This document shows positions 671 through 26,135 of a stretch of 27,869 bases of DNA, one piece after another. The number at the start of each line of letters is the position of its first letter. Within the stretch, counting starts at the first letter, position 1. Under the pieces are notes generated by a model. That model was not told the DNA's origin. It did no database searches and saw only the letters and a program-made list of their open reading frames with translations. The stretch spans positions 1 through 27,869 of the IMG/VR virus record IMGVR_UViG_3300028025_006439; one strand, written 5' to 3'. The translations under genes were made by a program, and so were the position numbers. The stretch is from a virus.

Positions 671-1282
671 TTAAAGTCCAGTAACCCAATAAAAATTAAA
701 ATCTCTTGATAATCCATTTGGGTTATACGTCACTCTATATGTTGAGGTGTTAAGTGTTTGATCTAAGGTATAATTAGTTCTTGTTTCCCCAAATAATTCT
801 AAAGTTGTGCTCCCTACAATACGAGTTCCCAAAGTGCCAGCTAAAAAAGGTCCCGTACTGAGTCCACCTACTGTTGATACGTGTGTAAGTGTAAAATCTG
901 TCTCATTCATAAAAGGATAAACAATAGTATCCCCAAGTACTAATTCGTAAGCACCAGGTGAACCATCACGACCTCCACCTACATCAAAAGAATAAGGTTC
1001 CCCAGCAAATGTGGTACCTTCAACTGGACTTGGCCTATATGTTTGTAGAGCCAGCGTTGATACATCAACATCAGCTGAACTACCACATACACCTGTGCTT
1101 GTTGCTCTAATTGTAACATCACCCGGATTAATGGTTACATTATATCCACTAATTAATGTTGATCTGGAAATATTTGTTGCATACAGAGTAGTTGCTCCTA
1201 AATAATCAATAATTGCTATTGTGAAATTATTTGCAGCGGTTGCCAAATTTAATCCTGTCCCTGTTATTGTTGCTACTGCCAT
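671..1282 (-). CDS. Uncharacterised probable fibre/tail accessory protein, 203 residues
   Basis: A complete frame with an ATG start (MAVATITGTGLNLATAANNF) and a TAA stop, ending in FNFYWVTGL. It is dominated by Thr, Ser, Gly, Val and Leu in alternating patterns, suggesting a beta-rich fold, with a single Cys (VCGSS, near residue 66). There is no signal peptide or membrane segment and no recognised family. It follows the 2603-residue adhesin by 41 bases and precedes another structural-looking gene. Phage genes directly after a large fibre often encode small attachment or chaperone proteins, but nothing in the sequence proves that here. Its leader contains ATAAACAAATA, also found before the 638-residue protein gene. 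Confidence 0.75.
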   Translation of the reverse strand: MAVATITGTGLNLATAANNFTIAIIDYLGATTLYATNISRSTLISGYNVTINPGDVTIRATSTGVCGSSADVDVSTLALQTYRPSPVEGTTFAGEPYSFDVGGGRDGSPGAYELVLGDTIVYPFMNETDFTLTHVSTVGGLSTGPFLAGTLGTRIVGSTTLELFGETRTNYTLDQTLNTSTYRVTYNPNGLSRDFNFYWVTGL

Positions 1283-1323: not shown

Positions 1324-4300
1324 CTAACTTGGGTTTATTAGACAAAAACCATTTGTTGAACATTCTTCAGTACCTGGAATCCATATGTTAGGACATGTTA
1401 CTTCACTTCCGTATTGAACACAAACAGGTATAGCATATGAAGAACCTGTTTTAACACATATACCTGCAGTGTATGTACCGTCACCATTATCCATACTTTC
1501 AAGATCTATTATTCTTACTGTTATAACATCAGTATTAATGTCTCTATATCTTACATACAAGTCACTTGGTACTGAGCTATACGTATATGTGTAACAAATA
1601 GCGTTTGCTGTAACTGTTGCACATGGTACCTCAACTTGTCCAGCATTTGTGACACATCCATTTGCGTCTGTCACTTGTAACCAATAATAACCACAAGATA
1701 ATTCCGTAACAACTCTAGACGGTGTTGTGTGTGGTACATTTGTATATGTTGTAATTAGATTATCAGTTGGGTAGTGGTTATATGGGGACGCCGTATCTTT
1801 ATATAATCTATATGTCTTAGGCCATACTCCACCACTAGAAGAAATCGTTATTGAACCATCATTATCTGCAACAGATGCTCCCACCACATTATACATTGAC
1901 GCATCTTGTAGTGATGGTTGAGTGATTGTTACGGTGTAATCTTTCCAACATGTTTCAGCCGCATTATAAACTCTGAAAGTGTAATCTCCAGCTAGGAATT
2001 GATACATTATTGAATAATTCCCTCCAACATTATATCTTGTAGTATTTGAACCATTGAAACTACTTCCTGAATTAAATCTAAAGAATGTACTTGTTGATGA
2101 TGGTCCTGATGTTCCAATTGATGTTGATGATCCATGACAACTTATAGTACCCACTGATAGGTTTGCATTTGGTATTCCTGTATTTAGGTCAACAGAGTTT
2201 CCTGTTGACGGTGATTCACATCCAGCACTATCTTTAACTCTTATATAATAAGTTCCTCTTGCTAAATTAATAAACTGTGCACTTTCTTGGTACGTGTCAC
2301 CATTATCAATACTATAGTTATATACACCTGATCCTCCGCCAGCATTTATTGTGATGCTACCATTTATACTATCCCAACATGTTGGATAACCCACACTTGA
2401 TACACTTGCAGTAATTGCTCCAGGTATTGTAATAGTACGTGAATATTCAGTTACGCATGGAGTGCTGTCTTTAACAAAAACACTATAAGTGCCAGTAGTT
2501 GTATACGAATATGTTTGTGGTGCATCTAACCAATCACCATTGGTTCCCTTTCTAACTTTATAACCAGTTCCAGAACCACCTGTTGGACTTGATATAGTTA
2601 TTGTACCCGAATTTCCAGGACATGTTGGATTAGATACACTAACCGTTGCAGTTACTTGTGAAGGTTCGGATACTACAACTCCATATGAAAACTCACAATC
2701 ATCTTTATCTCTAAGATAGATATAGTATGTTCCTCCTCTTAATCCACCCCAAACTAATGTGGTTCCCGGCCAATTAGTCCAATCACCTGAACCTAATTTA
2801 TATTTGTAAGTTCCTCCATTTCCACCACTTACTGAGTTTATCGTTATTGAACCGGCGTAAATACCATCACTATTTTGTTCATAACAAGTTAAGTTTGAAA
2901 CGGTATAATTCATCGCAGGATGTGACTTAGATAATGTAACATTATTGGAGAATGCCGTACAATAATTACCATCAACAACTAATACTGAATATGTTCCAGT
3001 TGGTTTATTTGAGAATGTGCCGGTTGATTGTTGTTCACCATAACTAGATTCATTACTACTAATATAATATGTGTAACTTCCTGAACCTCCAGAGGCGGTT
3101 GCAACAACTGAACCTGTGTTACCTGTATAACATGTTGGGTGATTTCCTACCGCTAATGATACTGTTAATGCCGTTGGTTGGGTTACTACTACTGAATACC
3201 AATCACTTTCACAATCAGACGCGTCCTTTACTTTATAGTAATAAGTTCCCGCCGTTTTACCGGTATATTCTCTACTTGTTGTGGTAGTTTGGTAAGTTCC
3301 TCCTGACATTGCATTAACATCACTAAGTTTAATTGCATATGGTCCTCCCTGTCCTCCACCCATAGATGAAATTGTTATTTTACCACTCGAAGCACCGTTA
3401 CAATCAAGATTAACGACTGTAGTTGATGCGGATGGTTGGCTTCTGGCCAAATCAATTCCAAAAACAGATGAAACACAACTTGGTGTATTTCTATCTCTTA
3501 TTTTTGCATAATAATATCCACTAGATAAACTATTAAATGTTGCTCCTGTTTGCCATGTTCTACTAGCATTAGCAGTATCAGTATTTAATGAAATTGAATA
3601 ATCATATAAACCTGAACTACCAGACCCAGACAATATTATTTGTCCTGTTGTACCAGTCCAACATGTTGGTTTTGTTGTTGAGGCCGTTGTTACACTAAGT
3701 TGTGTTGGTTGTGTTATTGTTGCCGATGTGTAACCAGTTTCACCAAAACTATCTTTTGCATAGATATCATAATTACCAGCAGTTAAACTACCGAATGTTG
3801 CACTAACCTGATAATCCACATTATTTCTAGAATACGTGTAATTTGCAGTACCACCGACAACATTACTTACAGTAATTGAACCAGTACCACCATGACATGT
3901 TACATTGGTTACAGATAATGTTGGTGTTATTGTCACATCCGTAATTGAAATAGTTATTGTTTTGTCAAATGTTAAACTTGTACTATCAGTTACTCGTACT
4001 CTAATTGAATATGATGACTTAGCTTCGTAGTTAAACACAACCGCACTTTTTAATACTCCCGATGTAATTGTGAAACTACTATTATCAGGATAATTTACAG
4101 TATCGTGTAATGCAAATGTCATTGCACCACCTTCTTGGTCTGTAGCTGAGAATGTACCGATTGTTGTTCCTGTTGGAACATTCTCGGATATTGAAGCCGA
4201 ACTTAATGAAATATCTGTAGGTGCCTCATTGACATTAGTTATGGTTATTGTAAATGTACTATCATAATATAATCCACCAGCATCTGTTGTTCTAACTCTA

Positions 4301-7300
4301 ATTGAATATGTTGATGGTGATTTAGCCTCATAGTTAAACACCACAGCATTTTTTAATGATGAACCATCAATACTAAACGATGCATTATCATTATCTCCAG
4401 TTCCAGCAACTAATGAATATGTAAATGTATCTCCACCATCAACATCGGACGTTGAGAATGTTCCGATTGTTGTTCCTGTTGCGGTATTTTCTGCTTGTGA
4501 TGAATTACTTAATGATAATCCGTAAGGTGCTTCATTTACATTATTTATAGTAATTGTAAATTGTTTTTCGGTAAATTGTCCAATACTATCTGTACTTCTA
4601 ACTCTAATTTTATATGAAGTTTTTACTTCATAGTTTGGTATAAATCCATTTTTTAATAATGAACCTGATATTATAAAACTACTGTTGTTATCATCTCCAG
4701 TACCAGCAACTAATGAGTAGGTATATGTGTCACCCGGATCAAGACTTGTTGAGCTAAATGTACCGATAGTTGTACCTGTTGCGGTATTTTCATTTATTGA
4801 ATCATTACTTAACGAAATATCTGTCGGTGGATAGTTTGGAGTTGATGATGGAGTTGGTGTTGGTGTTGGTGTTAATACTTGAACCGATAATCCGAACTCA
4901 CAAATTGTTGTTGGTGTTGGTGTTTGCGTTTGAGTAACGGTTGGTGTAACCGTTTTTGTAGGTGTTATGGTTGGTGTTACTGTATTTGTTGGTGTTACAC
5001 TTGGTGTTAATGTTGGGGTTTGAGTTTGAGTAACGGTTGGTGTTGGTGTTGGTGTTAATATAATCACTGATAAACCAAATTCGCAGACAGTTGTTGGTGT
5101 TGGTGTTTGCGTTTGAGTAACGGTTGGTGTAACAGTTGTTGTTGGTGTCACTGTTGGAGTAACTGTACTTGTTGGTGTTAATGTTGGTGTAACCGTCATC
5201 GTTGGTGTTGGTGTAGGTGTAGGTACCGTATAACAATCTCCCGTTTCCAAAATTCTAATATTTGCAACAGGAGAATAATTAACCTCATCTTGTGAACCTT
5301 TTAATGATTTATAAGCAATCGGTTGAGTTATTGTATATATACCTTCGGTAACATTTGAATATATTGTATCAACTATACCTGTACTTATGTCAAATTCATC
5401 ATATTGTACGTAACCAAATGAATCCACAATGTATGTTGTTCCACTATAATATTCACATGGATCCACACCCGCACTTTGTGCAAATGAACCTTGTTCAAAT
5501 GTTGTTTTATTAAATGGATTTGGTGAATCCCAACTTGTTATATCAACACTTGTTATTGTACCACCACTATATGGAATGTTTAGTTGGACAAATTTAGTTG
5601 TTTCATTTGTCCCAATAGTTACATTTTTTGTTGCAAATAATACCGTACTTCCAGTATAGATGTTTACCGTAAATGTAATTCCAAAATAAGATGGTGATAA
5701 GTTTCCATTAGAATCAAAAACATTAAAATTTAAACCATTATCATCATTATCTAAATCACAAATTTCAACTGTATTAATAAAAAGTATTTTTGGTTTATGA
5801 TATGTAAATGGTATAGAATCAAAAGGATAAACTTCTCTAAATGAAGATTCATTTGCCTCGCTATATGTTATTGCGGTTAAATTATTATCAAAAAGATAAA
5901 AACTATCAGGATTTGTTCTATTTTTTATTATACCTTTATTAATTGTATCTCCAGTATAAAATTGATTTGTATTCCAATTTGTAATTAAACCGTCAACATC
6001 ATTACTAAATGATAATGATAAGTCATTTGGGTTATACGAATCTATGAACCAAGCACTTGTGTGATCAAGATTGACACCGTTCAAATTATAAGTTCCACCA
6101 TTCAATTGTGATGTTAAAGAAGTTGTTCCTGAAAAAATATCAGTAACAACACCATATTGAACTTTATAAAATACTAAATTACTCTTTTTATAATCTCTAT
6201 AATATCCATTTAATGCCGATAATCTACCGTCAACATCATAATATAATTTTTTATTTATTGTTATACCTAAAGAATCAGAATTATCATACCAAAGTAGAAA
6301 ATAATTTGGTATTGTTTCTAATTTTAATTCATGAGTAAAATACGTTTCAATATTAGTTACCCCTGGTTTCTTTTCGGCAGATATTGTATTTGTTCCTGTT
6401 GATTCTGTTAATGAAATAAGATATCCTTGTGCTTGATTATCCGCATCTTCTTGTGATGTTGTTGAAACAACATGTCCAACAGGAAGACTATACGTTATCG
6501 GTATTGGATTATTTAATTCACCAATTAGTGTTGATGATTGTGGTTGTCCTATTAAAGAAATAGCATTACTAGAATAAAGTGTTGGGTTAGTATTATATTT
6601 TTCCGGTCTACCAGAAATATATGATAAATAAAATAATCTAGGTGTATCAATTACATATTCTTGTTTTGTTGTGTCATTTAATATGTCTATTTGAGTAAAT
6701 GTTTTTATTCCGTCGACATATTTGTATGACAATTTTCTAGTTGTTGGTGGTCCAAAAGTTGGTCCAGCCGGTACAGAATAGATATACCCACCATCCGAAT
6801 AGTACCCACCTATGTCACCAGTTAAATTATCATATTTTTTAATAACAGAATCACTATCATTTAAGAAGGGTTTATTTGAAAATCGTCTTCTAAAATATTT
6901 TGGTGTTTCTACAAATAATTTTTGTGATGGAAGAATAAAATAAATTAATGCTGCAAATATTAAAGCTGGAAGTACATATAATGCAATAATCCCAAGTGGG
7001 GTTAAAGTTGCAGTTCCAGCCGTTAAACTAGCTAAACTACCCGTAGCACCAACATAATTTCCAGCCCCTACTGCACCTGCCCATGTTGATAATGATGTGG
7101 CACCAAATACACCTAAATTTATTGAAAAACCAAGAATAGTACCCGCTAATGCACCTCCACCAGCCCAATATTTATATCTATTATCGACCATGTATTGTGG
7201 TATATTAGGTAGATAACTACCCTCAACGTAACCCCTGGTCATATAATTCACACAATGTTCAAATCCTGTGGCAGGTAAATGTTTGTTATTTCCAAAATCA

Positions 7301-9135
7301 AATAATGTAAATGTGTTATTGTTTACATCATACTCATTTGATGTTGATCCACTCCACCCTAATAAATAAGAATAAACAGACGGTTGTAATAAATCAGTAT
7401 TATTGATTATTTTATGTAATGTCCCAACTCCAACCATAGTTGGATGTACATTTGCTGGAACAAACCTTACATTCAAATCTACTTCAGGTAAGTCCGCTGG
7501 CGGATTTGAATAAAAATCTCGGAAAATGGTTCCAGCATGATTCCTCGGACCATCTATAACTTCTTTAGTGTTAGTGGGTCCAACAAGCCATCTAGTTGCA
7601 ACATAATCTACCGTTATTCCAAATTCTCTTTTTAATAAATTACCAACTTGATAGACTTTATTTGTTGGTGATGTTCTTACACTATCTCCATAAAAATATG
7701 GTAATGATGGTGTTGTTAACAAATTATCCGCCCAAATGTAATTACCTTTTGTTGAGTAATTATCAGTAGATCCTGACCACTGTGATATTGGTAACTTAGA
7801 CCAAATTTTAGTAACGAATTTTGGGTTATGGTATGCATCATATGGTGAATATGGATTTACACCCATATCATATCCATATATCTCACTACCACAACCAATT
7901 GTAACTTTCACATTAGTTGTACCTCCATTATATGATTTATTTTGTCCGACGGCTAATCTAATGTTAACTAATCCACTAGTTGTAACAACATAAAATGTTT
8001 TAGATGTGTTCCAATCTCTGGGTCCAATTTTTATAAATGCACCTTCTCCAAGTTTATATCTTACTTTTATTAAACTAAATGGTGTCATAACATCATATGC
8101 ACCAACATTTCCAGAATCGTATGAATATGAAACACTACCAATTTGATCACCATTAAGTCCATCTGTAATTAATAATGACACATCTTCGGCACTATCTGTG
8201 GCAGTAACTGTTACAGGTACTATTCTATTTTGAGTTGCGGTACCTGCCAATACATTCTTAATTGCATATTTTAACCCGTTTGGTTTAACATTAGGTGTTC
8301 CAGGTAAATATGGAGTACTTTCAGTATAACCACTTAAATAAAACGGTATTGTTATTTCGCTAGTACCACAACCATACCCAACACCAAAGCAATTACCAAC
8401 AATTTCAAATTTATGTGTTGAAGAGTTATAAGTATACTTTGTTCTTACATTTAAATTTCCAACATTTAACGTTAAAGTTTCATCACTATAAAGTTCAGTT
8501 TGTAAATATGGATCAATGTACCACGGTCCAACTAAAAATGGTGTATAATCGGTAACGTTTTTATTCACTAAACCATCAATAGGTGAATCGGGTAATTTTT
8601 CTCTATAATATGTCACAGTTTGTGGACATGTTGAACAATGTTGTGTTGATGATGTAAACCCTCTACAAAATTCTGCAGAAATTAATGATGGGTCACAATC
8701 TAATTCTACCTTTATTGCACCGCTAGTTCCGTTAGATGTTATTACATCTAACATAATAAAACCATTATCTTTGGTATCTAAATCCATTAATAATTGGTGA
8801 TATTTTATTGTTTGTGTGGATATATTACCTAAGTCATATTCATCTAATATTGTTAGAACTCCGTCTACGTTGTATTTTATTCTTACCTTAACTTTTGTTG
8901 ACCCAATATTTGGTGCTATTGGTGTGAATATAAATTTTAAAAGTTTTAATACTTTTGGTACTTTAAATACATATGTGGGTCTAAGATTAGATAATTGTGT
9001 TCTAATTAAATAAAATGAAAGTCCACTATGTGTACCGTTTCCGGTCCATGTTAAACTTTTGGTGACACCACATTCGTGTGATAGATTATCTGGCGCCTCC
9101 CCCGCTACTGTACAATTTATTTCAAATGAACTCAT
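1324..9135 (-). CDS. Giant modular adhesin (2603 residues) with Pro-Thr stalk, cadherin-like and SprB-like repeats
   Basis: Probable receptor-binding long fibre or surface adhesin of the phage, and the largest gene in the window. Visible modules in order are as follows. Residues 1-650 are a unique, probably beta-rich region with scattered Cys. Residues about 655-735 are hydrophobic, with a Gly/Ala-rich stretch then a strong membrane-like segment (IIALYVLPALIFAALIYFIL) followed by KYFRRR. Residues 740-1300 are a second unique region, including SQEDADNQAQGY, which resembles the signature of DUF5977. Residues about 1304-1431 are a Pro-Thr stalk. Residues about 1436-1732 are three cadherin-like repeats (NVNEAP links; ENTATGTTIGTFS). 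Residues about 1736-2499 are about nine SprB-like repeats, most with a Cys followed by GSITI and GGSG. A Cys-rich tail ends the protein. SprB repeats are known from the motile Flavobacterium adhesin SprB. No signal peptide or type IX secretion C-terminal domain is visible, which fits a virion protein rather than an exported host protein. The start is ATG with no Shine-Dalgarno. Confidence 0.9.
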   Translation of the reverse strand: MSSFEINCTVAGEAPDNLSHECGVTKSLTWTGNGTHSGLSFYLIRTQLSNLRPTYVFKVPKVLKLLKFIFTPIAPNIGSTKVKVRIKYNVDGVLTILDEYDLGNISTQTIKYHQLLMDLDTKDNGFIMLDVITSNGTSGAIKVELDCDPSLISAEFCRGFTSSTQHCSTCPQTVTYYREKLPDSPIDGLVNKNVTDYTPFLVGPWYIDPYLQTELYSDETLTLNVGNLNVRTKYTYNSSTHKFEIVGNCFGVGYGCGTSEITIPFYLSGYTESTPYLPGTPNVKPNGLKYAIKNVLAGTATQNRIVPVTVTATDSAEDVSLLITDGLNGDQIGSVSYSYDSGNVGAYDVMTPFSLIKVRYKLGEGAFIKIGPRDWNTSKTFYVVTTSGLVNIRLAVGQNKSYNGGTTNVKVTIGCGSEIYGYDMGVNPYSPYDAYHNPKFVTKIWSKLPISQWSGSTDNYSTKGNYIWADNLLTTPSLPYFYGDSVRTSPTNKVYQVGNLLKREFGITVDYVATRWLVGPTNTKEVIDGPRNHAGTIFRDFYSNPPADLPEVDLNVRFVPANVHPTMVGVGTLHKIINNTDLLQPSVYSYLLGWSGSTSNEYDVNNNTFTLFDFGNNKHLPATGFEHCVNYMTRGYVEGSYLPNIPQYMVDNRYKYWAGGGALAGTILGFSINLGVFGATSLSTWAGAVGAGNYVGATGSLASLTAGTATLTPLGIIALYVLPALIFAALIYFILPSQKLFVETPKYFRRRFSNKPFLNDSDSVIKKYDNLTGDIGGYYSDGGYIYSVPAGPTFGPPTTRKLSYKYVDGIKTFTQIDILNDTTKQEYVIDTPRLFYLSYISGRPEKYNTNPTLYSSNAISLIGQPQSSTLIGELNNPIPITYSLPVGHVVSTTSQEDADNQAQGYLISLTESTGTNTISAEKKPGVTNIETYFTHELKLETIPNYFLLWYDNSDSLGITINKKLYYDVDGRLSALNGYYRDYKKSNLVFYKVQYGVVTDIFSGTTSLTSQLNGGTYNLNGVNLDHTSAWFIDSYNPNDLSLSFSNDVDGLITNWNTNQFYTGDTINKGIIKNRTNPDSFYLFDNNLTAITYSEANESSFREVYPFDSIPFTYHKPKILFINTVEICDLDNDDNGLNFNVFDSNGNLSPSYFGITFTVNIYTGSTVLFATKNVTIGTNETTKFVQLNIPYSGGTITSVDITSWDSPNPFNKTTFEQGSFAQSAGVDPCEYYSGTTYIVDSFGYVQYDEFDISTGIVDTIYSNVTEGIYTITQPIAYKSLKGSQDEVNYSPVANIRILETGDCYTVPTPTPTPTMTVTPTLTPTSTVTPTVTPTTTVTPTVTQTQTPTPTTVCEFGLSVIILTPTPTPTVTQTQTPTLTPSVTPTNTVTPTITPTKTVTPTVTQTQTPTPTTICEFGLSVQVLTPTPTPTPSSTPNYPPTDISLSNDSINENTATGTTIGTFSSTSLDPGDTYTYSLVAGTGDDNNSSFIISGSLLKNGFIPNYEVKTSYKIRVRSTDSIGQFTEKQFTITINNVNEAPYGLSLSNSSQAENTATGTTIGTFSTSDVDGGDTFTYSLVAGTGDNDNASFSIDGSSLKNAVVFNYEAKSPSTYSIRVRTTDAGGLYYDSTFTITITNVNEAPTDISLSSASISENVPTGTTIGTFSATDQEGGAMTFALHDTVNYPDNSSFTITSGVLKSAVVFNYEAKSSYSIRVRVTDSTSLTFDKTITISITDVTITPTLSVTNVTCHGGTGSITVSNVVGGTANYTYSRNNVDYQVSATFGSLTAGNYDIYAKDSFGETGYTSATITQPTQLSVTTASTTKPTCWTGTTGQIILSGSGSSGLYDYSISLNTDTANASRTWQTGATFNSLSSGYYYAKIRDRNTPSCVSSVFGIDLARSQPSASTTVVNLDCNGASSGKITISSMGGGQGGPYAIKLSDVNAMSGGTYQTTTTSREYTGKTAGTYYYKVKDASDCESDWYSVVVTQPTALTVSLAVGNHPTCYTGNTGSVVATASGGSGSYTYYISSNESSYGEQQSTGTFSNKPTGTYSVLVVDGNYCTAFSNNVTLSKSHPAMNYTVSNLTCYEQNSDGIYAGSITINSVSGGNGGTYKYKLGSGDWTNWPGTTLVWGGLRGGTYYIYLRDKDDCEFSYGVVVSEPSQVTATVSVSNPTCPGNSGTITISSPTGGSGTGYKVRKGTNGDWLDAPQTYSYTTTGTYSVFVKDSTPCVTEYSRTITIPGAITASVSSVGYPTCWDSINGSITINAGGGSGVYNYSIDNGDTYQESAQFINLARGTYYIRVKDSAGCESPSTGNSVDLNTGIPNANLSVGTISCHGSSTSIGTSGPSSTSTFFRFNSGSSFNGSNTTRYNVGGNYSIMYQFLAGDYTFRVYNAAETCWKDYTVTITQPSLQDASMYNVVGASVADNDGSITISSSGGVWPKTYRLYKDTASPYNHYPTDNLITTYTNVPHTTPSRVVTELSCGYYWLQVTDANGCVTNAGQVEVPCATVTANAICYTYTYSSVPSDLYVRYRDINTDVITVRIIDLESMDNGDGTYTAGICVKTGSSYAIPVCVQYGSEVTCPNIWIPGTEECSTNGFCLINPS
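1640..3930 (-). repeat. Array of about nine SprB-like repeats (protein level)
   Basis: In the encoded adhesin, units of roughly 80-95 residues recur. Each has a core such as NVTCHGGTGSITVSNVVGG, PTCYTGNTGSVVATASGG or PTCPGNSGTITISSPTGG. A Tyr-rich strand and an ending like GTYYIRVKDSAGCES follow, often closed by TQPT or a similar link. The last clear unit lacks the core Cys (ADNDGSITISSSGG). The repeats are diverged in both protein and DNA, so they are old rather than a recent tandem expansion. Confidence 0.8.
3940..4830 (-). repeat. Three cadherin-like repeats (protein level)
   Basis: Three consecutive units of about 100 residues start with PTDISLSNDSINENTATG-like sequence, continue with TTIGTFS and YEAKSxYSIRVR-type strands, and are linked by NVNEAP. 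This is the usual look of bacterial cadherin-like adhesin domains, which often bind calcium through acidic residues. Acidic positions (DVDGGD, DQEGG) are present. The third unit keeps TTIGTFSATDQEGG but ends with ITDVT before the SprB-like array. Confidence 0.8.
4840..5230 (-). repeat. Pro-Thr linker of the giant adhesin, with an internal duplication
   Basis: Low-complexity DNA with an approximate 18-base period encodes TPTVTPTxTVTP-type units. Two copies of a CEFGLSV motif interrupt it. A 44-base block is exactly repeated at 4907-4950 and 5090-5133, 183 bases (61 codons) apart and in frame. Confidence 0.95.
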
Positions 9136-9150
9136 CTACTATAATTACTT

Positions 9151-9441
9151 TTAACTTGTTTTTAGTCCGTAAATTGGTGAATTTAATCCAGGAGTATGTT
9201 TTATTTTTATTGTCTCATTAATAATACCACTATTTGACGACTTTGGGTATGTTTTACTAAAACGTTCTTCTTTTGTTGAATAATTAAAAACACTAACAGT
9301 GGTATCTAAAGATTGACTAGGTGTTATGAAAAGATTAATACTATATGTACCTTCGATGTCAGATACATTAAACCAAATAATTTTATCTACCTTATTAAAA
9401 TTGTTCGATATTTCAGGAACTTTTAATGTTGTTATAGCCAT
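9151..9441 (-). CDS. Small uncharacterised protein in the fibre block, 96 residues
   Basis: A complete ATG-to-stop frame starting MAITTLKVPEISNNFNKVDK and ending GLNSPIYGLKTS. It has no Cys, no membrane segment and no signal peptide. The middle (IIWFNVSDIEGTYSINLFI) alternates polar and hydrophobic residues, suggesting beta strands. The family is not recognised. It sits between two large modular fibre genes, 12 bases after one and 15 bases before the other, so it is almost certainly co-transcribed and co-expressed with them. A small connector, cap or chaperone of the adjacent fibre is possible, but this rests on position only. The leader is AATTAATTAAAA with no Shine-Dalgarno. Confidence 0.75.
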   Translation of the reverse strand: MAITTLKVPEISNNFNKVDKIIWFNVSDIEGTYSINLFITPSQSLDTTVSVFNYSTKEERFSKTYPKSSNSGIINETIKIKHTPGLNSPIYGLKTS

Positions 9442-9453
9442 TTTTAATTAATT

Positions 9454-11370
9454 TTATAAACATGTATAATTTTGTAATCCAACTTCACCAGTTATTTTAT
9501 TATAATCATATCCACTGGCACCTAATGCCGGAATTGGAGAGTAGACGAAATAATTTAAATTAAACGGTGTTGTTCCAGCAGCATCTTGGAAAATATACCT
9601 TGGTGGTGCAAATAATTCAGTTCCAGGTACGTAGTAGAAACTAATTGGATATCCTCCACACATATTATTATTATCTTTAACATTAGAGAACCAACCATTA
9701 AAGTGATATTCAGAATTAACATCGTTATAGTATATGTCCGCAGGGGTTACCGTTCCTGAACATAACGCACCTTGTGAAATAGATACTCCTTCTCCGTATC
9801 CACTGTCCTTAACCCCACAAGTTGTGAATATCTCTCCAGATATTAACGTTCTTGTTCTCCAAGCTCCAACACAACTAACCCATCCAATTGTTGTATCCGT
9901 TTCACCACCATTAGAAACAAATGTTAATTCTAAACAATCGTCAGTTCCTGCGTTACATGAATAACCACTATATAATTCTGTGAACACCGCTAAATCTGCA
10001 AATGGGGTACCAGCGGCTAATGATTCATAAACATAACAATCATCTATTCTATGCATTCCGGTTGATGATACAAACTTATAAACGGTGTCTGTGTTGGTAT
10101 CGTATTTAATATATCCAGTATTTGTCACATTTATTTGAGTTCCAGTTACATAAGTTTTTGTCACTAAATTACTACCACAATCTAATGTACTAGGACACTC
10201 CATTTTAATTGTTAATGTGTATGGTATAAAGACGTTTTCATATGCGGTTGAATACACGACTACGTCCATTGTGGTTTTTTCTTTTGTACTATAAAAACCA
10301 ATTACATCTTCTTGGTAAACAACTTGTCCAAGTGTTGATGTGTATAATTCCCCTATTCTTTCATCATGATTACCAACAAATACCTCGTCTGATGAATTTA
10401 ATGATGTGTACGATACCGTTACAGGTACGTTACCATAAGTTTGACCAATATCAAATTTAGTGTTTATATATGTATAACCCGGTGATGAAATTGTAAATTG
10501 ATATTCGGTATTACTACACGAAACACTTCTAAATGTAATACCTAAAGTTGCACAATCTCCATCTTTTTCCACTAATCTAGAATTATTTTGTGGTGATGTA
10601 CATTCTTCACCATTTTGTACACAAACATATGGTTCAGTTGAACAGTTATCACTACAAATGTAATTTGTATATGTACCTGGATTTGAGAATGTCAAATATG
10701 ACATATCTCCAGTAGATGTTCCGCATTCATAATAATAAACATATACTTTACCGTCAGTGCTTAAATTAATATCACCTTGTGTGATAACAATATCATATGA
10801 CGTACATCCTTCACAACTTCTTGGTGTACTTGTAGGTGTAGGTGTAGGAGTTTTGGTTGGGGTTGGGGTTATTGTCTTGGTTGGTGTTAATGTTGGTGTA
10901 ACAGTTGTAGTTGGTGTAACAGTTGGTGTAACAGTATTCGTAGGTGTCACACTATTAGTAGGTGTCACACTATTTGTTGGTGTTTGTGTATTAGTAGGTG
11001 TTACACTTGGTGTAACAGTATTTGTTGGAGTAACGGTAGGAGTAGCGGTCACCGTTGGTGTTGCGGTCGGCGTAACCGTCATTGTTGGTGTAACAGTTGA
11101 CGTTGGTGTAGGTGTTGGAGTTAATGGTGCTAAAGGTTTATCTAAAGTGTTTTCACAAATAAAATCGGTATTTTTGACAATAATTTTAGTTGTCTCTAGT
11201 GGTACTGAAACTAAAACTCCATCATAAAAAGTTAATTGACTTAATGTTAAACCTGTTGCAGGACTATTTTCATAGTACAGAGTCGCCAATGTGGACAAAT
11301 CATCATAATAGATGTTGTAAGGTCCAATTGCGGAGTTCCCCTGAAGTTTAACATATATATACCTTACCAT
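9454..11370 (-). CDS. Modular Cys-rich fibre protein with Pro-Thr linker, 638 residues
   Basis: Probable fibre or adhesin subunit. Residues 1-82 form a small N-terminal domain (MVRYIYVKLQGNSAIGPYNI) that ends in TTKIIVKNTDFICEN. The next gene upstream, for the 800-residue protein, has a similar domain end ([12 protein letters not shown]), so the two probably share an N-terminal fold. Residues about 83-182 are a Pro-Thr linker. Residues 183-638 are a Cys-rich region with many short Cys-containing loops (RSCEGCTSYD, CSDNCSTEPYVC). No enzyme motif, signal peptide or membrane segment is visible. The linker is the same type as in four other proteins of the block. The leader AATATAAACAAATA directly precedes the ATG. 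Host-receptor binding by the C-terminal region is inferred from architecture, not shown by a known domain. Confidence 0.85.
   Translation of the reverse strand: MVRYIYVKLQGNSAIGPYNIYYDDLSTLATLYYENSPATGLTLSQLTFYDGVLVSVPLETTKIIVKNTDFICENTLDKPLAPLTPTPTPTSTVTPTMTVTPTATPTVTATPTVTPTNTVTPSVTPTNTQTPTNSVTPTNSVTPTNTVTPTVTPTTTVTPTLTPTKTITPTPTKTPTPTPTSTPRSCEGCTSYDIVITQGDINLSTDGKVYVYYYECGTSTGDMSYLTFSNPGTYTNYICSDNCSTEPYVCVQNGEECTSPQNNSRLVEKDGDCATLGITFRSVSCSNTEYQFTISSPGYTYINTKFDIGQTYGNVPVTVSYTSLNSSDEVFVGNHDERIGELYTSTLGQVVYQEDVIGFYSTKEKTTMDVVVYSTAYENVFIPYTLTIKMECPSTLDCGSNLVTKTYVTGTQINVTNTGYIKYDTNTDTVYKFVSSTGMHRIDDCYVYESLAAGTPFADLAVFTELYSGYSCNAGTDDCLELTFVSNGGETDTTIGWVSCVGAWRTRTLISGEIFTTCGVKDSGYGEGVSISQGALCSGTVTPADIYYNDVNSEYHFNGWFSNVKDNNNMCGGYPISFYYVPGTELFAPPRYIFQDAAGTTPFNLNYFVYSPIPALGASGYDYNKITGEVGLQNYTCL
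10820..11130 (-). repeat. Pro-Thr linker of the 638-residue protein
   Basis: About 300 bases of period-18 DNA encode TPTPTPTSTVTPT-like sequence. It includes a near-perfect 18-base tandem pair around 10940-10975, encoding two successive TNSVTP units. Confidence 0.95.
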
Positions 11371-11401: not shown

Positions 11402-13804
11402 TTATCCACACGTTATTTTATTTATCACTAAATCATATGTTAAGAATCCTGTCGATGTTTTAGTTATTAATTCTCCACTTACCCATTTACCGTCTAACCC
11501 CATGAATTTATAACAATTACCCACGGTTAACGTTTGTACTGACCTTAGTTGTACACCTCTCAAATATTGTCTAGTTGATCTAATGTCTGTAGGGTTTTTA
11601 ATACTTCTAAATCTGTTATCAATATTTGATTTTAAGAAAGCAGAATCACAAGCCCCAACCTCTATAGATTCAACAATACCGATTGAATTGACATTATATT
11701 TGTTTCCGTTAGGTAATAAATAACTACCAGCTCTATAAACATTTATATAACCACCTCTTGGTCCTTGTTGATATAATTGTGAACCTACAACTAAAGGTGC
11801 CCCGCTAGGAATAGATGTTTGTCCGATATTATATTTTAAGAATATAAGTTCATTGGTATGGTCACAAATTTGTTGTCCTGTTGGTGCGTATAAGAATGGT
11901 GATGTTGCTTCAGTACCAATTGATTGGTTACCCATCCAAATAATATTATTACCTTCCACATGACAAGTACCACTATAGCTAATACCATAAGATGCTTGAC
12001 TCAATCCAATTAAACTTGCACTATTATTATAATTGTAGTAAGTGGCTATATTTGCTCCATTTATGAAGTATATTCTAAAATTAGTTGGTCCATTATAGAA
12101 TCTTATTATATCTGACCATCCATCATAATAATTAAAATACAATTCTTTTAATTGTGGGTCATAGTCACAACACATAGTAGTTACTTCAATTGTTGTTGGT
12201 TCCACACATCCCTCAAATGGAGTTGGTGTTGATGTTGGTGACGGTGTTGGGGTTAGACTTAACTCCATTCCAGATGTCGGTGTGGTAGTTGGAGTAATGG
12301 CGATGGTTGGTGTAGGTGTGGCCGTACTTGTTGGTGATGGTGATGGTGTTGGTGTATTTGATAGTGGTGGTACCGTACAATCATTACATGTTGAATGTTC
12401 ACTAACAATGATACCTGAAGTTTCAGGTGTTAAAAGGGTTAAACCTATAATGATATAACAATAACCATTAGTACTTTTTACAACTTGTCCATAGCTTGGT
12501 CCGAAATTATCAGGTCCATTATATTTTATAACGCCAGTATAAACTGATTCATCTTCTGGTGTGTATTGGTCATCACATCTTTGTACATTATAATATGTTA
12601 TTGGCGGTACCAAAATTTCCGTAATATCACAATCAAATCCACAGTTTGGTGTGGATGATGGTGTAACAGTTGGTGTAACGGTATTCGTTGGTGTCACCGT
12701 TGGTGTAACAGTAGGTGTAACTGTTTGTGTTGGTGTAACTGTTTGAGTTGGGGTTGGGCATGTTGTAACTGATGAAATATATGCATTTCCTGATACTCCA
12801 TATTCACTAATTTCTAAAACATTTGTTAATCCACCTCCCGCTAAATAAAACACTGTTGCGCTTGATGATAACGTGATTTGAATATCTTGTATTGTCCATT
12901 TTTCAGAACCATCAGGTCCTTTATATAAAAACTCACCAACCTCCATTGGTTGATCCGCATCATAAATTAATATGTTACTAGAATAACATTCAAAACATGT
13001 TGAGTACAATGAATCTTTAATACAATATCCACTACTATCTAACGGATTAGTAGGTGTTGGAGTTGGAGTTTCTGTACTCGTTGGTGTTTGCGTAGGGGTT
13101 CCAGTATTGGTTGGTGTTTGCGTTGGTGTCGATGTAACCGTATACGTTGGTGTATGAGTTGGTGTAACGGTATTCGTAGGTGTTTGTGTAACTGTATTCG
13201 TTGGTGTTTGCGTAGGTGTTTCAGTAGGTGTTTCTGTCGGTGTAACACTTGGCGTAACAGTATTTGTAGGTGTTTGTGTAGGGGTCTCGGTTGGTGTTTG
13301 CGTAGGAGTCTCTGTCACCGTTGGTGTGACGGTATTTGTTGGTGTTTGCGTAGGCGTTTCTGTATTCGTTGGTGTTTGCGTTGGTGTCGATGTAACCGTA
13401 TTTGTAGGTGTTTGCGTAGGAGTTTCGGTCGGCGTTTCAGTTGGTGTTATAGTTGGCGTAACGGTATTCGTAGGTGTTTGTGTAACTGTTGGTGTAATCG
13501 TAACAGTTGGTGTAATAGTTGGTGTTGGTGTAACAGTTTTAGTTGGTGTTGGAGTTGGGGTTCGTGAAGGTATGTTGGATACTGCAATACATTGTGATGT
13601 TGTACATAATCCAAAACCTTCTATTTTTATATGTGTTGTATTATTTGGTATTCCTTCAACAAGTAATGGGAAAAGTGAAACGGCAACATTATCATAAGCA
13701 ATCATTTCAGTACATGAAGAGCACTCATCAGTACAGGTGTATAACTTAACCGAAGTTATAGCCCCACCTACAGTCCCTAACGATACTAATGCTGAAAATG
13801 ACAT
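11402..13804 (-). CDS. Modular fibre protein with three Pro-Thr linkers, 800 residues
   Basis: Probable fibre or adhesin with an alternating linker-module plan. Residues 1-78 are an N-terminal domain with a Cys pair (CTDECSSC), similar at its end to that of the 638-residue protein. Residues about 79-256 are a very long Pro-Thr linker. Module A follows ([16 protein letters not shown], then [11 protein letters not shown]). Residues about 350-385 are a second linker. Module B follows ([17 protein letters not shown], then [13 protein letters not shown]). Residues about 482-527 are a third linker. A larger C-terminal region contains [19 protein letters not shown] and RFYNGPTNF and ends in NKITCG. 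The Y-x-GP-[DT] element recurs in A, B and the C-terminal region, suggesting related folds. The YY...RCD element of module B also occurs in the 508-residue protein. No family is recognised with certainty. Only seven bases separate it from the upstream nucleotidyltransferase-like gene. Confidence 0.87.
12225..12360 (-). repeat. Third Pro-Thr linker of the 800-residue protein
   Basis: It encodes [17 protein letters not shown]-like sequence, richer in Ser than the other linkers, and separates module B from the C-terminal region. Confidence 0.9.
12645..12757 (-). repeat. Second Pro-Thr linker of the 800-residue protein
   Basis: A short run of TVTPT units between modules A and B of the protein. 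The DNA is made of variations on GTTGGTGTAACAGT as read on the plus strand. Confidence 0.9.
13035..13570 (-). repeat. Long Pro-Thr linker with exact 34-base repeats
   Basis: The longest linker of the window, about 178 residues, built of [16 protein letters not shown]-type units. A 34-base block is exactly repeated at 13110-13143 and 13368-13401, offset 258 bases (86 codons), so exchange between copies would remove or add sequence in frame. Synonymous codons are otherwise strongly mixed between units. Confidence 0.95.
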
Positions 13805-13811
13805 GTTTATT

Positions 13812-14135
13812 TTATTTTATTATTGATTGACTATATTTTATTGTATCAAATACTACGTTTACGTTTATTTGGTGTTGGTTACTAATTTCTTCATTCAATC
13901 CTGTTAAATAAGTATCTTCATCGATAACAACATCGTAATTAGAGAACTCATCATAATACCCTTCTAAATGACTACCGATAACCCTCACATCCATTTCTTT
14001 ATTAAAATGTATTTCAATTGATTCTTTTATTTTTCTAAAATTATCTTTTACTTCAATTGGTAAATCTTCGAAGTTGGAAATTTGTCCTCTCCTATCTCTT
14101 TCTCTACCGTTATATAATACTTTTGTTATATTCAT
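13812..14135 (-). CDS. Nucleotidyltransferase-fold small protein with altered catalytic residues, 107 residues
   Basis: Residues 54-71 read [18 protein letters not shown]. They match residue for residue in spacing the GS-x(9)-S-D-x-D core of minimal nucleotidyltransferases (family pattern GSRARGDARPDSDIDLLV). The Gly-Ser and the second Asp (D68) are kept, but the first catalytic Asp is Asn (N66). The third acidic residue expected on the next strand also appears to be Asn (INVNVVF, residues 90-96). The fold assignment is therefore good, but activity is doubtful unless D68, D72 or D74 compensates. Residues 26-48 are a charged, probably helical stretch. The gene lies 11 bases after the 654-residue fibre gene and 7 bases before the 800-residue one, so it is expressed with them. 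It has none of the Pro-Thr or beta-rich composition of its neighbours. Possible roles are a binding-only nucleotide or protein adaptor, a modifier of fibre proteins, or an anti-defence protein related to MNT antitoxins. All three are inference. Confidence 0.72.
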
Positions 14136-14146
14136 TTTTTATATTA

Positions 14147-16111
14147 TTATGTGAAACTTAAATTAACTTGATAATATGCATCAACATGGTATAATGGGTC
14201 ATTTGTTGAGAAATTAATTAATAACGTATGAACCGTGCCCGCCGATAGTAAGTATGGTCCAGGGACCAACACCGTTTCAACAATTGGACCCATTTGACAT
14301 TGTAAACTACCTCCTGGAGCGTTACCTCTCGCTAATAGTGTACCATCTAATCTAAATGAAATTACCTCATAATTTGACGCTTCACGTTCTCCAACTCCTT
14401 CAAAATCTATATTCAAATATGTGTCGATAGCACCTACGGTAATAGTTGCAGTTGCGGTACCTGTTTGTGTTGAGTTACAAGTACCACCGCAGTTCTGAGA
14501 ATCTGAAACATTATAACGAATTGCTAAATTATCACTCGATATAATCCAACCAGCATCGGCACATGTTGTTACCCCACTTACATTATTTGTGGTTTCCCAA
14601 ACTAAACCTGTTACAGGTAAAACCTCATATTCCACAAATTGTACTGTTCCTCCACTAAATGTACAGTCAACAGTTGGTGTTGGTGTTTGCGTAACTGTAT
14701 TTGTTGGTGTAACGGTATTTGTTGGTGTCACAGTTGGTGTAATCGTAACAGTTGGAGTAACGGTTGGGGTAACTGTAACAGTTGGTGTTGGTGTTTGTGT
14801 TGGAGTTGGGGTTGGCACGTATTCAATAAATGCTTCCACTAAATAATTGTCTCCTGAAAATATACTTTGTGTAATTTCTAACGAATTACTATTATCAACA
14901 ATAACAGATTGGTCATAAATAACCGTGTTTGTTACAACATCAGTTATTTTAATTCTGTGTCTCCAATAATATTCGGGAGATGTAACCCACTCCGCCAAAA
15001 ATATTCCTCCATCTCCACCATTAACATATGGTAGTAAATCATAATTCTCATTAACTTGTAGATATGGTGTTGTTGTTGAAGGTGATGATGAACTTGCATT
15101 CCAAGTTTTAAATATGTCTCCATTTCCAGTTATTAATCTTAATGTGAATGTACTATTATCATCAGGACTATCTACTTGGTCATATATTCTGAGAGTAATA
15201 TTTGAACTTTCCGGTGTTGGTGACGGTGATAACGTTGGTGTTACACTTGGTGTAACAGTGTTTGTCGGTGTTACACTTGGGGTAACAGTTGGGGTAACAG
15301 TATTTGTTGGTGTAACAGTTGGTGTTGCTGTCGGCGTCTTTGTTTGAGTTACACTTGGTGTAACACTTGGAGTAACAGATGCGGTAGGTGTTGGTGACGG
15401 AGATATAGAAACAGTAGGTGTTACTGTTGGGGTTTGAGTCATTGTTGGTGTTGGAGTAAGATTCTCCGCACAATTAACCGCAACCGCTTTGATTACTTCT
15501 TGAGTAAACCATGGTTCATTAAGACTTATTTTAATATCTTTATTACCATTTGTTGAATATGCCTTTACCGCCGTACCATTAACACTAATCGGTGTTGTAC
15601 TATTATCTCCCCAATGTATGGTAAATTGTAATTCATCAAATAATCTTGTGGAGGTTGCATTTGTAGTTCCTGTTATAGAAACAACATTACAATCAACTGA
15701 ATAGTTGAAATTAATGGATACGGATTGACTTTCATTTCCAATGTTTTTATCAAATCCAACCATCGGACCATATTCATCAACTTTTGAATCTAAGAATAAT
15801 GGTACTTGATGATTATTATATAATTTACTATTAAGGTTTTCTTTAATTTCTAATTCCGTACTTCCAGTTCCTGTAATTAAATTCCAAGTATTTGGGGTTG
15901 GTGTTCCCCATCTATAATAACCATACGGAACGGTTCCTCCGCTTACATTATAAATTGTGTCTCCGGTTAACGGTCCCACATAAGCATTACCCGTATTTCC
16001 AGTCCAAGACATAAGTTCTTCGTTAGAGTCATACCAAAAACGACCGGTTAATGAAACCAGTTTTGTTTGTGGTATGTTTTTTCTCTTAATAGAATGCCTT
16101 ATTCTTTTCAT
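14147..16111 (-). CDS. Modular fibre protein with PKD-like domain and two Pro-Thr linkers, 654 residues
   Basis: Probable fibre or tail-surface protein. A basic N-terminus (MKRIRHSIKRKNIPQTK) is followed by a Gly/Thr/Trp-rich region to about residue 120. Residues about 135-215 look PKD-like (FTIHWGDNSTTPISVNG then KAYSTNGNKDIKISL), the usual WGDGS and Y-x-x-x-G pattern of that beta-sandwich. Residues about 217-302 are a Pro-Thr linker. Residues 303-430 are a middle module (NITLRIYDQVDSPDDNSTFT). Residues about 431-480 are a second linker. The C-terminal module has a Cys cluster (NCGGTCNSTQTG) and ends in YYQVNLSFT. The basic N-terminus lacks a hydrophobic core, so it is not a signal peptide. 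It may be the virion-binding end. The gene lies 20 bases after the 508-residue protein gene and 11 bases before the nucleotidyltransferase-like gene. Its specific function is unknown. Confidence 0.85.
   Translation of the reverse strand: MKRIRHSIKRKNIPQTKLVSLTGRFWYDSNEELMSWTGNTGNAYVGPLTGDTIYNVSGGTVPYGYYRWGTPTPNTWNLITGTGSTELEIKENLNSKLYNNHQVPLFLDSKVDEYGPMVGFDKNIGNESQSVSINFNYSVDCNVVSITGTTNATSTRLFDELQFTIHWGDNSTTPISVNGTAVKAYSTNGNKDIKISLNEPWFTQEVIKAVAVNCAENLTPTPTMTQTPTVTPTVSISPSPTPTASVTPSVTPSVTQTKTPTATPTVTPTNTVTPTVTPSVTPTNTVTPSVTPTLSPSPTPESSNITLRIYDQVDSPDDNSTFTLRLITGNGDIFKTWNASSSSPSTTTPYLQVNENYDLLPYVNGGDGGIFLAEWVTSPEYYWRHRIKITDVVTNTVIYDQSVIVDNSNSLEITQSIFSGDNYLVEAFIEYVPTPTPTQTPTPTVTVTPTVTPTVTITPTVTPTNTVTPTNTVTQTPTPTVDCTFSGGTVQFVEYEVLPVTGLVWETTNNVSGVTTCADAGWIISSDNLAIRYNVSDSQNCGGTCNSTQTGTATATITVGAIDTYLNIDFEGVGEREASNYEVISFRLDGTLLARGNAPGGSLQCQMGPIVETVLVPGPYLLSAGTVHTLLINFSTNDPLYHVDAYYQVNLSFT
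14670..14820 (-). repeat. Second Pro-Thr linker of the 654-residue protein
   Basis: Period-18 DNA encoding TPTPTQTPTPTVTVTPT-like sequence, separating the middle module from the C-terminal module. Confidence 0.92.
15205..15465 (-). repeat. First Pro-Thr linker of the 654-residue protein
   Basis: Period-18 DNA encoding units such as SVTPSVTQTKTPTATPTVTP. It directly follows a segment ending VNCAENL, comparable to the Cys-Glu elements before linkers in the 638- and 2603-residue proteins. Confidence 0.93.
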
Positions 16112-16131
16112 TTATTATAATTAGTTAATTA

Positions 16132-17658
16132 TTAGGAACAACTTGACCAATCGCTTATTGTTCCTCCTATCGAAATAGTTGCTATATATGATATTTTAGA
16201 TTGTCCGGGTAATACAATTGCATATAATTTACCATTCCCATTAAATGTTTGTCCTCCCGTATTTGCATCCCATAGTGTATATGTTGTTGGTGGTGTAATA
16301 CTTGTCTCATTAACATATAAAGGTCCGTATTGTGTATAACCTGCACTCTGTAGAACATATGGATATTGATTACAATAAGGTTGTAATTGAGCCGATGTAG
16401 GGTAACCGCTATTTAATGAATATGCAAATATTTTTTGTGTTCTAATAAATGGAGGTTCTACATAATCACAACCATTTAATCCGATTTCTTCTCCGTTTAT
16501 TGTTATTGTTGATCTTGTAATATATAGATGGTCTCCAGGACTTGGGTCTGTTTCTGTTGTTGCAACCGATCCTGAAATTACATATGTTATGTTAGGGTCA
16601 ATAGAATAAACTCTCATTCCTGAACTCCACGTTCCTGAAATATAATCCCTACTATATCTTATAGTATTATTATCACATCTTGTTAATTTATACCAATAAT
16701 AAACTGGTGTTGGTGGTCCCTCAGGTGTTGTTGAAGGTGTTGGTGTTGGGGATGGTGATAATGCCATTCCCGTTGTTGGTGTTGGGGTTGGGGTTAATGT
16801 ATTGGTTGGTGTTGGGGTTATTGGGTCAATGTTAATTCCTCCACCACTTTCATAAAATTTTATCGGTGAGCTAGTTGTTCCGACTTGGTTACCTTTCGTA
16901 CCGTTAAATTTAAAAATCTTATATGAATAATCTCTTTTATCTATATCAACTTGAAAATACATGTCCTCATTCTCATTAATTTCATGAGATGTTGAATACA
17001 CGTCGTTATAAAAATCTGTAATAATTCCGTCTTTAGCATTAAAGAATTTAGCGGTCATAAAGAAAGTATTTCCTGTGGTCGTACCGCTTAAATTTGTTTC
17101 ATCTAAAACACTCTCGTCTTGAAACCAAAAAAGATACATGTTTTCTTTGTTTGTATAATTTGAACCGTGGAAAACAGGTACATGTATATTCTCTTGTAAT
17201 GGAGTATAAAAATATTTTTCACCTAATGGTAATGTTAAATTTTTTGTGAATATTAATTTTCTATTCTGTCTTGTCGGTGCGGTGTAACCAGTAACATTAC
17301 CATTAACGTCTAATAAATTTGATGTTTTGTAAAACTCCAATCTAAAAAAACTTTCTGTTGATTGTCTCAACATTTTAGCATTTTCTTTAGGTTCTATACC
17401 GACCAAACTATAATCTAATCCTTGGTAATAACTACCTTCTTTAGAAAAATAAAAATAAAACCATATATCAGACTCGTCAGTACCATCTGGATTATGAATA
17501 TATCTGACAGTTTCATAATTGTCGATTGGGTTAATAATATCGTTTAATACCTCGTCCTCAAATTGTTCCATGTTTTCTTGCCATCCCAAATTCATTTGAA
17601 AGTCAAGTTCGTGGTTCAATACAAGATTTAAATCGGTATTTTCTCTTAGTATTTTCAT
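16132..17658 (-). CDS. Baseplate-proximal or fibre-connector protein with Pro-Thr linker, 508 residues
   Basis: The start is placed at the ATG at 17656-17658, which overlaps the stop of the upstream gene by one base (TAATG). A TTG six bases upstream (17664) would add two residues but is a poor choice. Residues 1-275 form a globular, charged domain (MKILRENTDLNLVLNHELDF; aromatic-rich IWFYFYFSKEGSYY) quite unlike the low-complexity fibres. Residues about 277-311 are a short Pro-Thr linker. Residues 312-508 are a module with YYWYKLTRCDNNTIRYSRDY, related to the RCD module of the 800-residue protein. One gene thus joins a globular N-terminal part to the linker-module design used downstream. It may attach the fibre set to the baseplate, which is inferred from order and architecture. 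No family is recognised. Confidence 0.85.
   Translation of the reverse strand: MKILRENTDLNLVLNHELDFQMNLGWQENMEQFEDEVLNDIINPIDNYETVRYIHNPDGTDESDIWFYFYFSKEGSYYQGLDYSLVGIEPKENAKMLRQSTESFFRLEFYKTSNLLDVNGNVTGYTAPTRQNRKLIFTKNLTLPLGEKYFYTPLQENIHVPVFHGSNYTNKENMYLFWFQDESVLDETNLSGTTTGNTFFMTAKFFNAKDGIITDFYNDVYSTSHEINENEDMYFQVDIDKRDYSYKIFKFNGTKGNQVGTTSSPIKFYESGGGINIDPITPTPTNTLTPTPTPTTGMALSPSPTPTPSTTPEGPPTPVYYWYKLTRCDNNTIRYSRDYISGTWSSGMRVYSIDPNITYVISGSVATTETDPSPGDHLYITRSTITINGEEIGLNGCDYVEPPFIRTQKIFAYSLNSGYPTSAQLQPYCNQYPYVLQSAGYTQYGPLYVNETSITPPTTYTLWDANTGGQTFNGNGKLYAIVLPGQSKISYIATISIGGTISDWSSCS
16725..16830 (-). repeat. Short Pro-Thr linker of the 508-residue protein
   Basis: It encodes ITPTPTNTLTPTPTPTTGMA followed by a Ser-Pro-rich stretch. 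This is the first linker met in transcription order and the shortest in the window. Confidence 0.9.
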
Positions 17659-25682: not shown

Positions 25683-26135
25683 TTAAATGTTTAATATTAT
25701 AAAGTCTGAAGACGAAAAGGCTCCGTTATTAACTGTGTATTCAATTTTTACTTTAGCGGTGTATGGTTTATTGGTGCTGTCTGAAACCCTAAAAAGTCTT
25801 TCGTCTTCATCAGAAGAAAATGTTCTCACGTTATCAGGATCATCTTCTGCAGATATCACTTCAAGATTTGTTATATCTAAATTAGGTATGTATCTTTTTA
25901 CCGATTCTCTAATTTCTTCTTCAATTAAGTTCCAAGTTACCATATCATTTTGGTCGAATATAAATTGATATAATCTTGTACCAAAATCAGGTAAGAAATA
26001 ACGACTACCTCTTTTTGTTAATAATAGGTGTATTAGATTGGCTCTAACTTCCCTATCGGGAGCTGAAGTCATCTTTAAATAACTACCCTCTAAACTGTCT
26101 CTAAAAGGAAAATCAATTCCGTATTTTACCGCCAT
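25683..26135 (-). CDS. Baseplate wedge protein gp25 (GPW/gp25 family), 150 residues
   Basis: A small core protein of the baseplate wedge in contractile-tail phages, which seeds the sheath and binds gp6 and gp53 in T4. The family signature is clear. FPFRDSLEGSYLKMTSAPDR is followed by EVRANLIHLLLTKRGSRYFL and PDFGTRLYQFIFDQND, then the helix NLIEEEIRESVKRYIPNLDI. T4 gp25 is 132 residues, so this is of normal size with a slightly longer acidic loop (SAEDDPDNVRTFSSDEDERL). It is the first gene after the terminator that closes nrdA, so it probably begins the baseplate transcription unit. The ATG at 26133-26135 has no Shine-Dalgarno. TTATAATAG lies 15 bases upstream of it. Confidence 0.96.
   Translation of the reverse strand: MAVKYGIDFPFRDSLEGSYLKMTSAPDREVRANLIHLLLTKRGSRYFLPDFGTRLYQFIFDQNDMVTWNLIEEEIRESVKRYIPNLDITNLEVISAEDDPDNVRTFSSDEDERLFRVSDSTNKPYTAKVKIEYTVNNGAFSSSDFIILNI

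Follow-up and report, generated by a model that had tools for sequence, protein, structure and literature searches.

A SprB- and cadherin-repeat protein in the tail gene cluster of an uncultured T4-like phage as a probable adhesion arm with exchangeable tips

What is a protein with repeats of the SprB gliding adhesin family doing among the tail genes of a virus? Gliding adhesins of Flavobacterium and Cellulophaga are suspected phage receptors, and in the literature that we found they are discussed in relation to phages only in this capacity (PMC7345892, PMC13288928). The sequence that raises the question is a viral record, the 27.9-kb linear IMG/VR fragment IMGVR_UViG_3300028025_006439, which was analysed over its full length of 27,869 nucleotides (hereafter, the window). 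A preliminary description, made from the sequence alone, proposed that one of its genes encodes a 2603-residue phage adhesin made up of repeats that belong to a host gliding adhesin. We therefore asked how the protein is organised, to which virus and host it belongs, where its repeats come from, and what it probably does.

The open reading frame is present as described, at 1324..9135 on the minus strand (as are all window features located below), with an ATG start at 9135, a stop at 1324 and 2603 codons. The Pfam search that had been proposed as a check of the repeats matched the SprB family (PF13573; E = 6.4 × 10−30, 102.9 bits against a curated cut-off of 28, 7 stretches), and the Cadherin family also scored over its cut-off (PF00028; E = 3.4 × 10−16, 59.9 bits against 28.8, 3 stretches). 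From N- to C-terminus, the protein consists of an N-terminal region of ~1300 residues without a clear database match, a Pro-Thr stalk (about residues 1305-1433; 4837..5223), three cadherin-like domains (residues 1434-1736; 3928..4836), an array of SprB-type units (residues 1737-2505; 1621..3927) and a variable tip of 98 residues (residues 2506-2603; 1327..1620), so that the stalk and the three cadherin-like repeats of the preliminary description are borne out. Cutting the array at the repeat boundaries gave nine units, R1-R9, of 76-96 aa each, in agreement with the earlier estimate of about nine; their pairwise identities are 18-43% (mean 30%), the divergent ones being units 8 and 9. Each of the nine scores under a repeat profile that was built from these same units, and the independent count is the seven of Pfam. 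A PHROGs search with the adhesin returned one weak match only, of unknown function.

The N-terminal region was divided into three parts. N1 (residues 1-330; 8146..9135) is an anchor module of the 'MSSFEINC' type, found at 10 viral loci with 35-86% identity (see also alignments A2 and A4); N2 (residues 331-860; 6556..8145) is the most diverged part of the anchor; and N3 (residues 861-1304; 5224..6555) has a weak match to DUF5977 at residues 876-906, below the cut-off. The only hydrophobic peak of the protein is a membrane-helix-like segment at residues 704-742 (6910..7026; Kyte-Doolittle peak 2.66), which is kept in relatives although the sequence there is among the most diverged of the anchor. 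Such a segment was found in all 7 of the scanned MSSFEINC-type proteins and in neither of 2 scanned proteins with another anchor type.

The main genes of the window are collinear, running from the large chain of ribonucleotide reductase through a gp25-like baseplate wedge protein (25683..26135; Pfam PF04965, 2 × 10−12; PHROG 261, 9 × 10−16), a gp6-like baseplate wedge protein (Baseplate_J; 23852..25681; PHROG 219, 3.8 × 10−22; Pfam PF04865, 1.4 × 10−5), conserved proteins of 1454 aa (19430..23794) and 590 aa (17658..19430; 57-91% identity in relatives, alignment A5) and a series of Pro-Thr stalk proteins to the adhesin, a layout that is kept in relatives. The adhesin had been described as lying beside baseplate genes; it does belong to the same minus-strand collinear run, but the gp25- and gp6-like genes are 14.7 kb upstream of it. 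Further stalk proteins are encoded at 11402-13804, 14147-16111 and 16132-17664 (within 11402..17664), followed by a 638-aa stalk protein at 9454..11370. The direct neighbours of the adhesin, a 96-aa small protein upstream (9151..9441) and a 203-aa protein downstream (671..1282), are both kept in relatives. Between two of the stalk genes lies a 107-aa gene (13812-14135), the product of which has a nucleotidyltransferase-like motif and a weak Pfam match (0.073) to the poly(A) polymerase palm domain. Near-repetitive Pro-Thr stalk DNA (4836-5223, 10813-11132, 12620-13567 and 14654-15346) is common to several neighbouring genes and also gives rise to long spurious open reading frames on the opposite strand.

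The 1454-aa protein directly follows gp6, the position of gp7 in T4, and served as the marker of the lineage. It carries a membrane-helix-like segment at about residues 527-564, and T4 gp7, at the matching position, likewise has a hydrophobic segment. Profile comparisons, which used shallow alignments, gave no match of the 1454-aa protein to T4 gp7 or of the 590-aa protein to T4 gp8.

The window is one piece of a T4-like phage genome. With the marker protein as query, 52 related loci were recovered from IMG/VR and none from INPHARED. The T4-like contractile traits were seen in a related 251-kb contig (G032) and not in the window itself: G032 encodes a T4-type terminase, a T4-type portal (Portal_T4, 1.6 × 10−75), a Gp23 capsid protein (1.4 × 10−62) and a tail sheath, and holds a cluster of 21 tRNA genes. 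Gp23 scored over the cut-off in 4 of the 9 related records that were searched. For the gp6-like protein and the G032 terminase, the closest matches, 27-29% identical, come from uncultured huge phages and from Flavobacterium phage immuto, which is the nearest relative in culture that was found. Shine-Dalgarno-like starts were seen for 0 of 11 genes in the window, 7% in G032 (1.4-3.8% expected by chance) and 4% in immuto, compared with 78% in T4. When 84,980 species genomes were scanned with two peptide patterns and the best 80 cellular matches to the SprB region were kept, all 80 were Bacteroidota proteins; a scan of this design is no census. Kinship with immuto, SD-less starts and these matches together make a Bacteroidota host very likely, as judged from sequence.

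Other products of G032 are of note. Two (L228 11456-16276 and L229 341-1756) have Bacteroidota-looking signal peptides ending in ..FGQ or similar, and one of them has a C-type lectin match (1.9 × 10−5). Near the end of the contig (L235-L237) lie many glycosyltransferase-looking and radical SAM/SPASM-looking genes, together with long '..SGSxxVSG..' repeat proteins, all of them named by eye.

We then compared the protein with the cellular adhesins whose repeats it shares. No type IX secretion system (T9SS) sorting domain (TIGR04131/CHU_C) was detected in the adhesin with NCBIfam or Pfam profiles, which did score two positive controls, the T9SS-exported SprB-repeat protein L109 (Cyclobacteriaceae) and the phage protein L249; on this point the preliminary description was right. 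These HMM tests replaced a crude motif regex because the latter had recovered no more than 12 of the 89 SprB proteins from cells, a set in which many sequences are cut by locus ends. CHU_C was likewise absent from 15 related viral records. Matches to Por_Secre_tail in 3 of 20 homologous C-termini (best 0.0029), the window not being among them, were judged to be spurious cross-matches between beta-sandwich domains. The adhesin also has no hydrophobic N-terminal segment or Sec signal peptide, and no sprF/PorP-type gene adjoins it, its flanks being phage baseplate and stalk genes. Like Flavobacterium SprB and other T9SS-exported SprB-repeat proteins, it has a long PF13573 tandem array and a Bacteroidota setting; unlike them, it lacks the signal peptide and the T9SS C-terminal domain, has cadherins and a Pro-Thr stalk before the array, and is surrounded by phage tail genes. 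The earlier view that this is a phage protein and not a simple host gene is supported, and the protein does not have the features of an orthologue of the SprB gliding adhesin.

A different phage does encode a SprB protein of the cell-surface type. In the 642-kb uncultured phage LR756502.1, L249 (12817-17829) is a protein of 1670 aa in which a signal peptide (MKKLILITSILLTSLLAWAQ..), PKD and a sorting domain of T9SS type B accompany 13 SprB repeats; it resembles the window protein in having a SprB array within a phage genome and differs from it in these sorting signals and in the absence of cadherins. The same record has a Gp23 capsid match and three CHU_C matches, and this phage may place proteins on the host surface through the type IX system of the host.

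The SprB-family nature of the repeats had been claimed correctly; outside phages, they match Bacteroidota surface proteins. The suggestion that a host gliding adhesin supplied the repeats of the phage protein, with the capture that this implies, was not supported in this form. For 267 of 270 phage repeats, the best match that was not near-identical lies in another phage, a figure that is partly expected from kinship; the positional result is stronger, with first repeats matching first repeats in 29 of 29 cases and last repeats matching last repeats in 27 of 27. Because first and last repeats retain their identity across phages, recent capture from a host was rejected. In an alignment of 20 homologous C-termini, all with SprB at E ≤ 0.01, the last unit (R9, 1621..1908; ..SSSGGVWPKTYRLYKDT..VTDANGC..) is aligned in 20 of 20 and strongly conserved, and the variable tip follows directly. 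The phage arrays form a family of their own, established among phages, in which the ends are constant, the middle varies and the tip is exchangeable.

Among 38 related viral records, SprB follows the marker gene downstream in 17, and most of the examined records without it end before the position of the gene; in one group (G028, G019 and G023) there is a single weak SprB match, in a different protein. Further scans yielded 37 SprB loci, as well as 10 loci that have an N-terminus of the window type. There are 27 complete proteins with at least 5 repeats, 26 of them of the tail type. The ~26 complete homologues fall into three N-terminal anchor classes that are unrelated to each other: the window type, a '..SGTxxGPYxIYYD' type and a 'MKISFIYSG' type. 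The payload that they carry ranges over 5-14 SprB units, 3 or 6 cadherins and about seven classes of tip. One tip, '..CASLGLMNCSDLEEI', recurs in slightly altered form on each of the three anchors, and the tip family of the window, '..GFCLINPS', on two (in L189 on the same anchor, in L097 on another). Conversely, the window tip is only 19-25% identical to the tips of L193, G009 and G004, with which it shares the anchor. Clustering of tips by connected components may fuse distinct tips, and the argument for swapping therefore rests on tips that are visibly alike at the C-terminus. The second anchor type occurs within the window itself, as the N-terminal 73 aa ('..GPYNIYYD..') of the 638-aa stalk protein, which has neither SprB nor cadherin units (own anchor HMM, E = 3.6 × 10−19). 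Tips common to several anchors, together with this SprB-less bearer of the second anchor, show that payloads have changed anchors. In three loci (L198, L205 and L210), the SprB-bearing cassette includes a separate conserved 1180-aa 'MPYSNTV..' protein with a single SprB-like match.

Comparison of the window gene with its closest homologue, L189, shows that synonymous divergence is uneven along the gene: dS reaches 0.67 in N2 and, in the cadherins, 0.50, but is close to zero in the stalk, in R4-R6 and in the tip. The two genes share 230 consecutive identical codons (maximum of 46 in 2000 shuffles), and since this run stands beside stretches with dS of 0.5-0.7, the alleles are mosaic. Other homologues are likewise uneven: identity to L094 is 35% in the N1 anchor and 76% in the cadherins, identity to L193 is 57% in N1 and 95% in R1, and identity to G009 is 41-56% in R2-R4 and 89% in the cadherins. 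The gene is under purifying selection, with dN/dS below 1 in each segment for which an estimate was obtained. It is plausible, though unproven, that the repetitive stalk DNA common to the neighbouring genes is the site of the exchanges.

A model of R7-R9 and the tip, built from 20 sequences, is all-beta, with pLDDT of ~90 in R7 and much of R9 and ~50 in the tip, whose low-confidence model leaves a receptor-binding fold conjectural. Foldseek comparison with the PDB gave fragments of Aureispira GhpA as the best match (5.6 × 10−9), followed by SiiE, strings of FnIII domains, T5 pb4 and the straight fibre of DT57C; TM-scores were low (0.2-0.45) because chains of domains flex. By sequence, the SprB profile matched GhpA alone in the PDB (E = 0.0034), and a direct search with the C-terminal part gave marginal filamin matches only. 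GhpA (PDB 9flx, 9flu and others), a hook of 5898 aa on the bacterial surface, is thus the closest solved fold and likewise a string of beta-sandwich domains, but at 13-18% identity and low TM-scores the likeness is one of fold and plan, not of orthology. T5 pb4 and the DT57C fibre, with their Ig/FnIII-like strings, are alike in carrying extended beta-sandwich arrays on the tail, but belong to other domain families. The AlphaFold2 model of N1 was poor (pLDDT 55; best PDB match marginal, at 4.6 × 10−4) and yielded nothing usable as a clue to the anchor.

These observations are best accommodated if the protein is, as we consider probable, an adhesion arm of variable length, borne on the tail or baseplate of a large uncultured T4-like phage of water-living Bacteroidota, with specificity set by the tip. 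The ~1300-residue anchor would dock on the particle, the stalk and the three cadherins would lead outward from it, the SprB-type beta-sandwich units (nine here, 5-14 in the family) would act as a spacer that sets reach and flexibility, and the conserved last unit would present a small exchangeable tip, which most likely determines the surface structure that is bound. We infer the location in the virion, the orientation and the function of the tip from the gene context and from the combination of a shared N-terminal anchor with a variable, exchangeable distal part, a fixed base and a variable end being the usual pattern in phage receptor-binding proteins. The anchor itself speaks against an arm, in that it has no recognisable homologue and a poor model, and its hydrophobic segment of ~39 residues is unusual for a fibre. 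The missing links of the 1454- and 590-aa proteins to T4 gp7 and gp8 and the low confidence of the tip model also count against it. The segment would suit a phage protein that sits on the surface of the infected cell, for instance in aggregation or superinfection exclusion, instead of on the virion, and LR756502.1 provides the example of a phage SprB protein equipped for export. We regard display of this kind as the least likely of the readings: the window protein has neither of the export signals of L249, CHU_C is missing from its viral relatives, and its payload shares an anchor with another protein of the tail cluster and comes after the baseplate genes.

It is also conceivable, though unlikely, that the SprB and cadherin units themselves bind, recognising the surface or extracellular polysaccharides to which host SprB binds, in a weak, multivalent and reversible adsorption, and that the tip is a cap. 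The exclusively Bacteroidota origin of the best 80 cellular matches, the strong conservation of the last repeat and the divergence of relatives within the repeats next to well-conserved cadherins, as in G009, would all be in keeping with binding by the repeats. Against it, the number of repeats varies from 5 to 14 whereas tips swap as units, a string of beta-sandwiches is a generic fold, and the literature searched names no ligand for the SprB repeat as such; the pattern of variable repeat number, constant end repeats and exchangeable tip fits no less well with a spacer arm that ends in a specificity tip. A direct engagement of the gliding machinery, in which the array mimics or pairs with SprB and the virion is transported over the moving surface until it reaches a site of injection, is very unlikely in our judgement. 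SprB and RemA have been proposed as phage receptors (PMC13288928) and in F. columnare the receptors are believed to belong to the gliding apparatus (PMC7345892), but gliding adhesins could serve as receptors for phages without any SprB repeats, the sequences give no evidence of SprB-SprB pairing, and the adhesin lacks the T9SS-sorted C-terminus, which aids SprB secretion and propulsion according to a title cited in PMC9127263. Equally a long shot is a combined scheme in which a SprB-family arm exploits the gliding surface, the virion binding the ligands of SprB or SprB itself and riding the moving track before the tip commits to a receptor.

Returning to the arm with a specificity tip, parts of this picture were already known: phage fibres often contain Ig-like strings, and two UniProt entries from uncultured phages, A0A6J5LD72 and A0A6J5LDA4 ('SprB repeat [uncultured Caudovirales phage]'; the best viral fold match, 1.9 × 10−12), already carry the SprB label. 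These are isolated automatic annotations, for which the literature found describes no architecture, context or function, and a full-text search that covered few subscription journals found no description of SprB repeats in phage adhesins; nor did the present search find exchange of a cadherin-SprB payload among unrelated anchors in T5 pb4 or the DT57C fibre. What is new here is a SprB/cadherin payload on three unrelated anchors with exchangeable tips. Phages with an arm of the same repeat family as the gliding adhesins raise a testable question about the role of the SprB repeat, and the signature of SprB units, cadherins and tip could help to predict the host phylum of such contigs. With interchangeable base, length and tip, these proteins amount to a natural kit of host-recognition parts in a group of phages that is uncultured and widespread.
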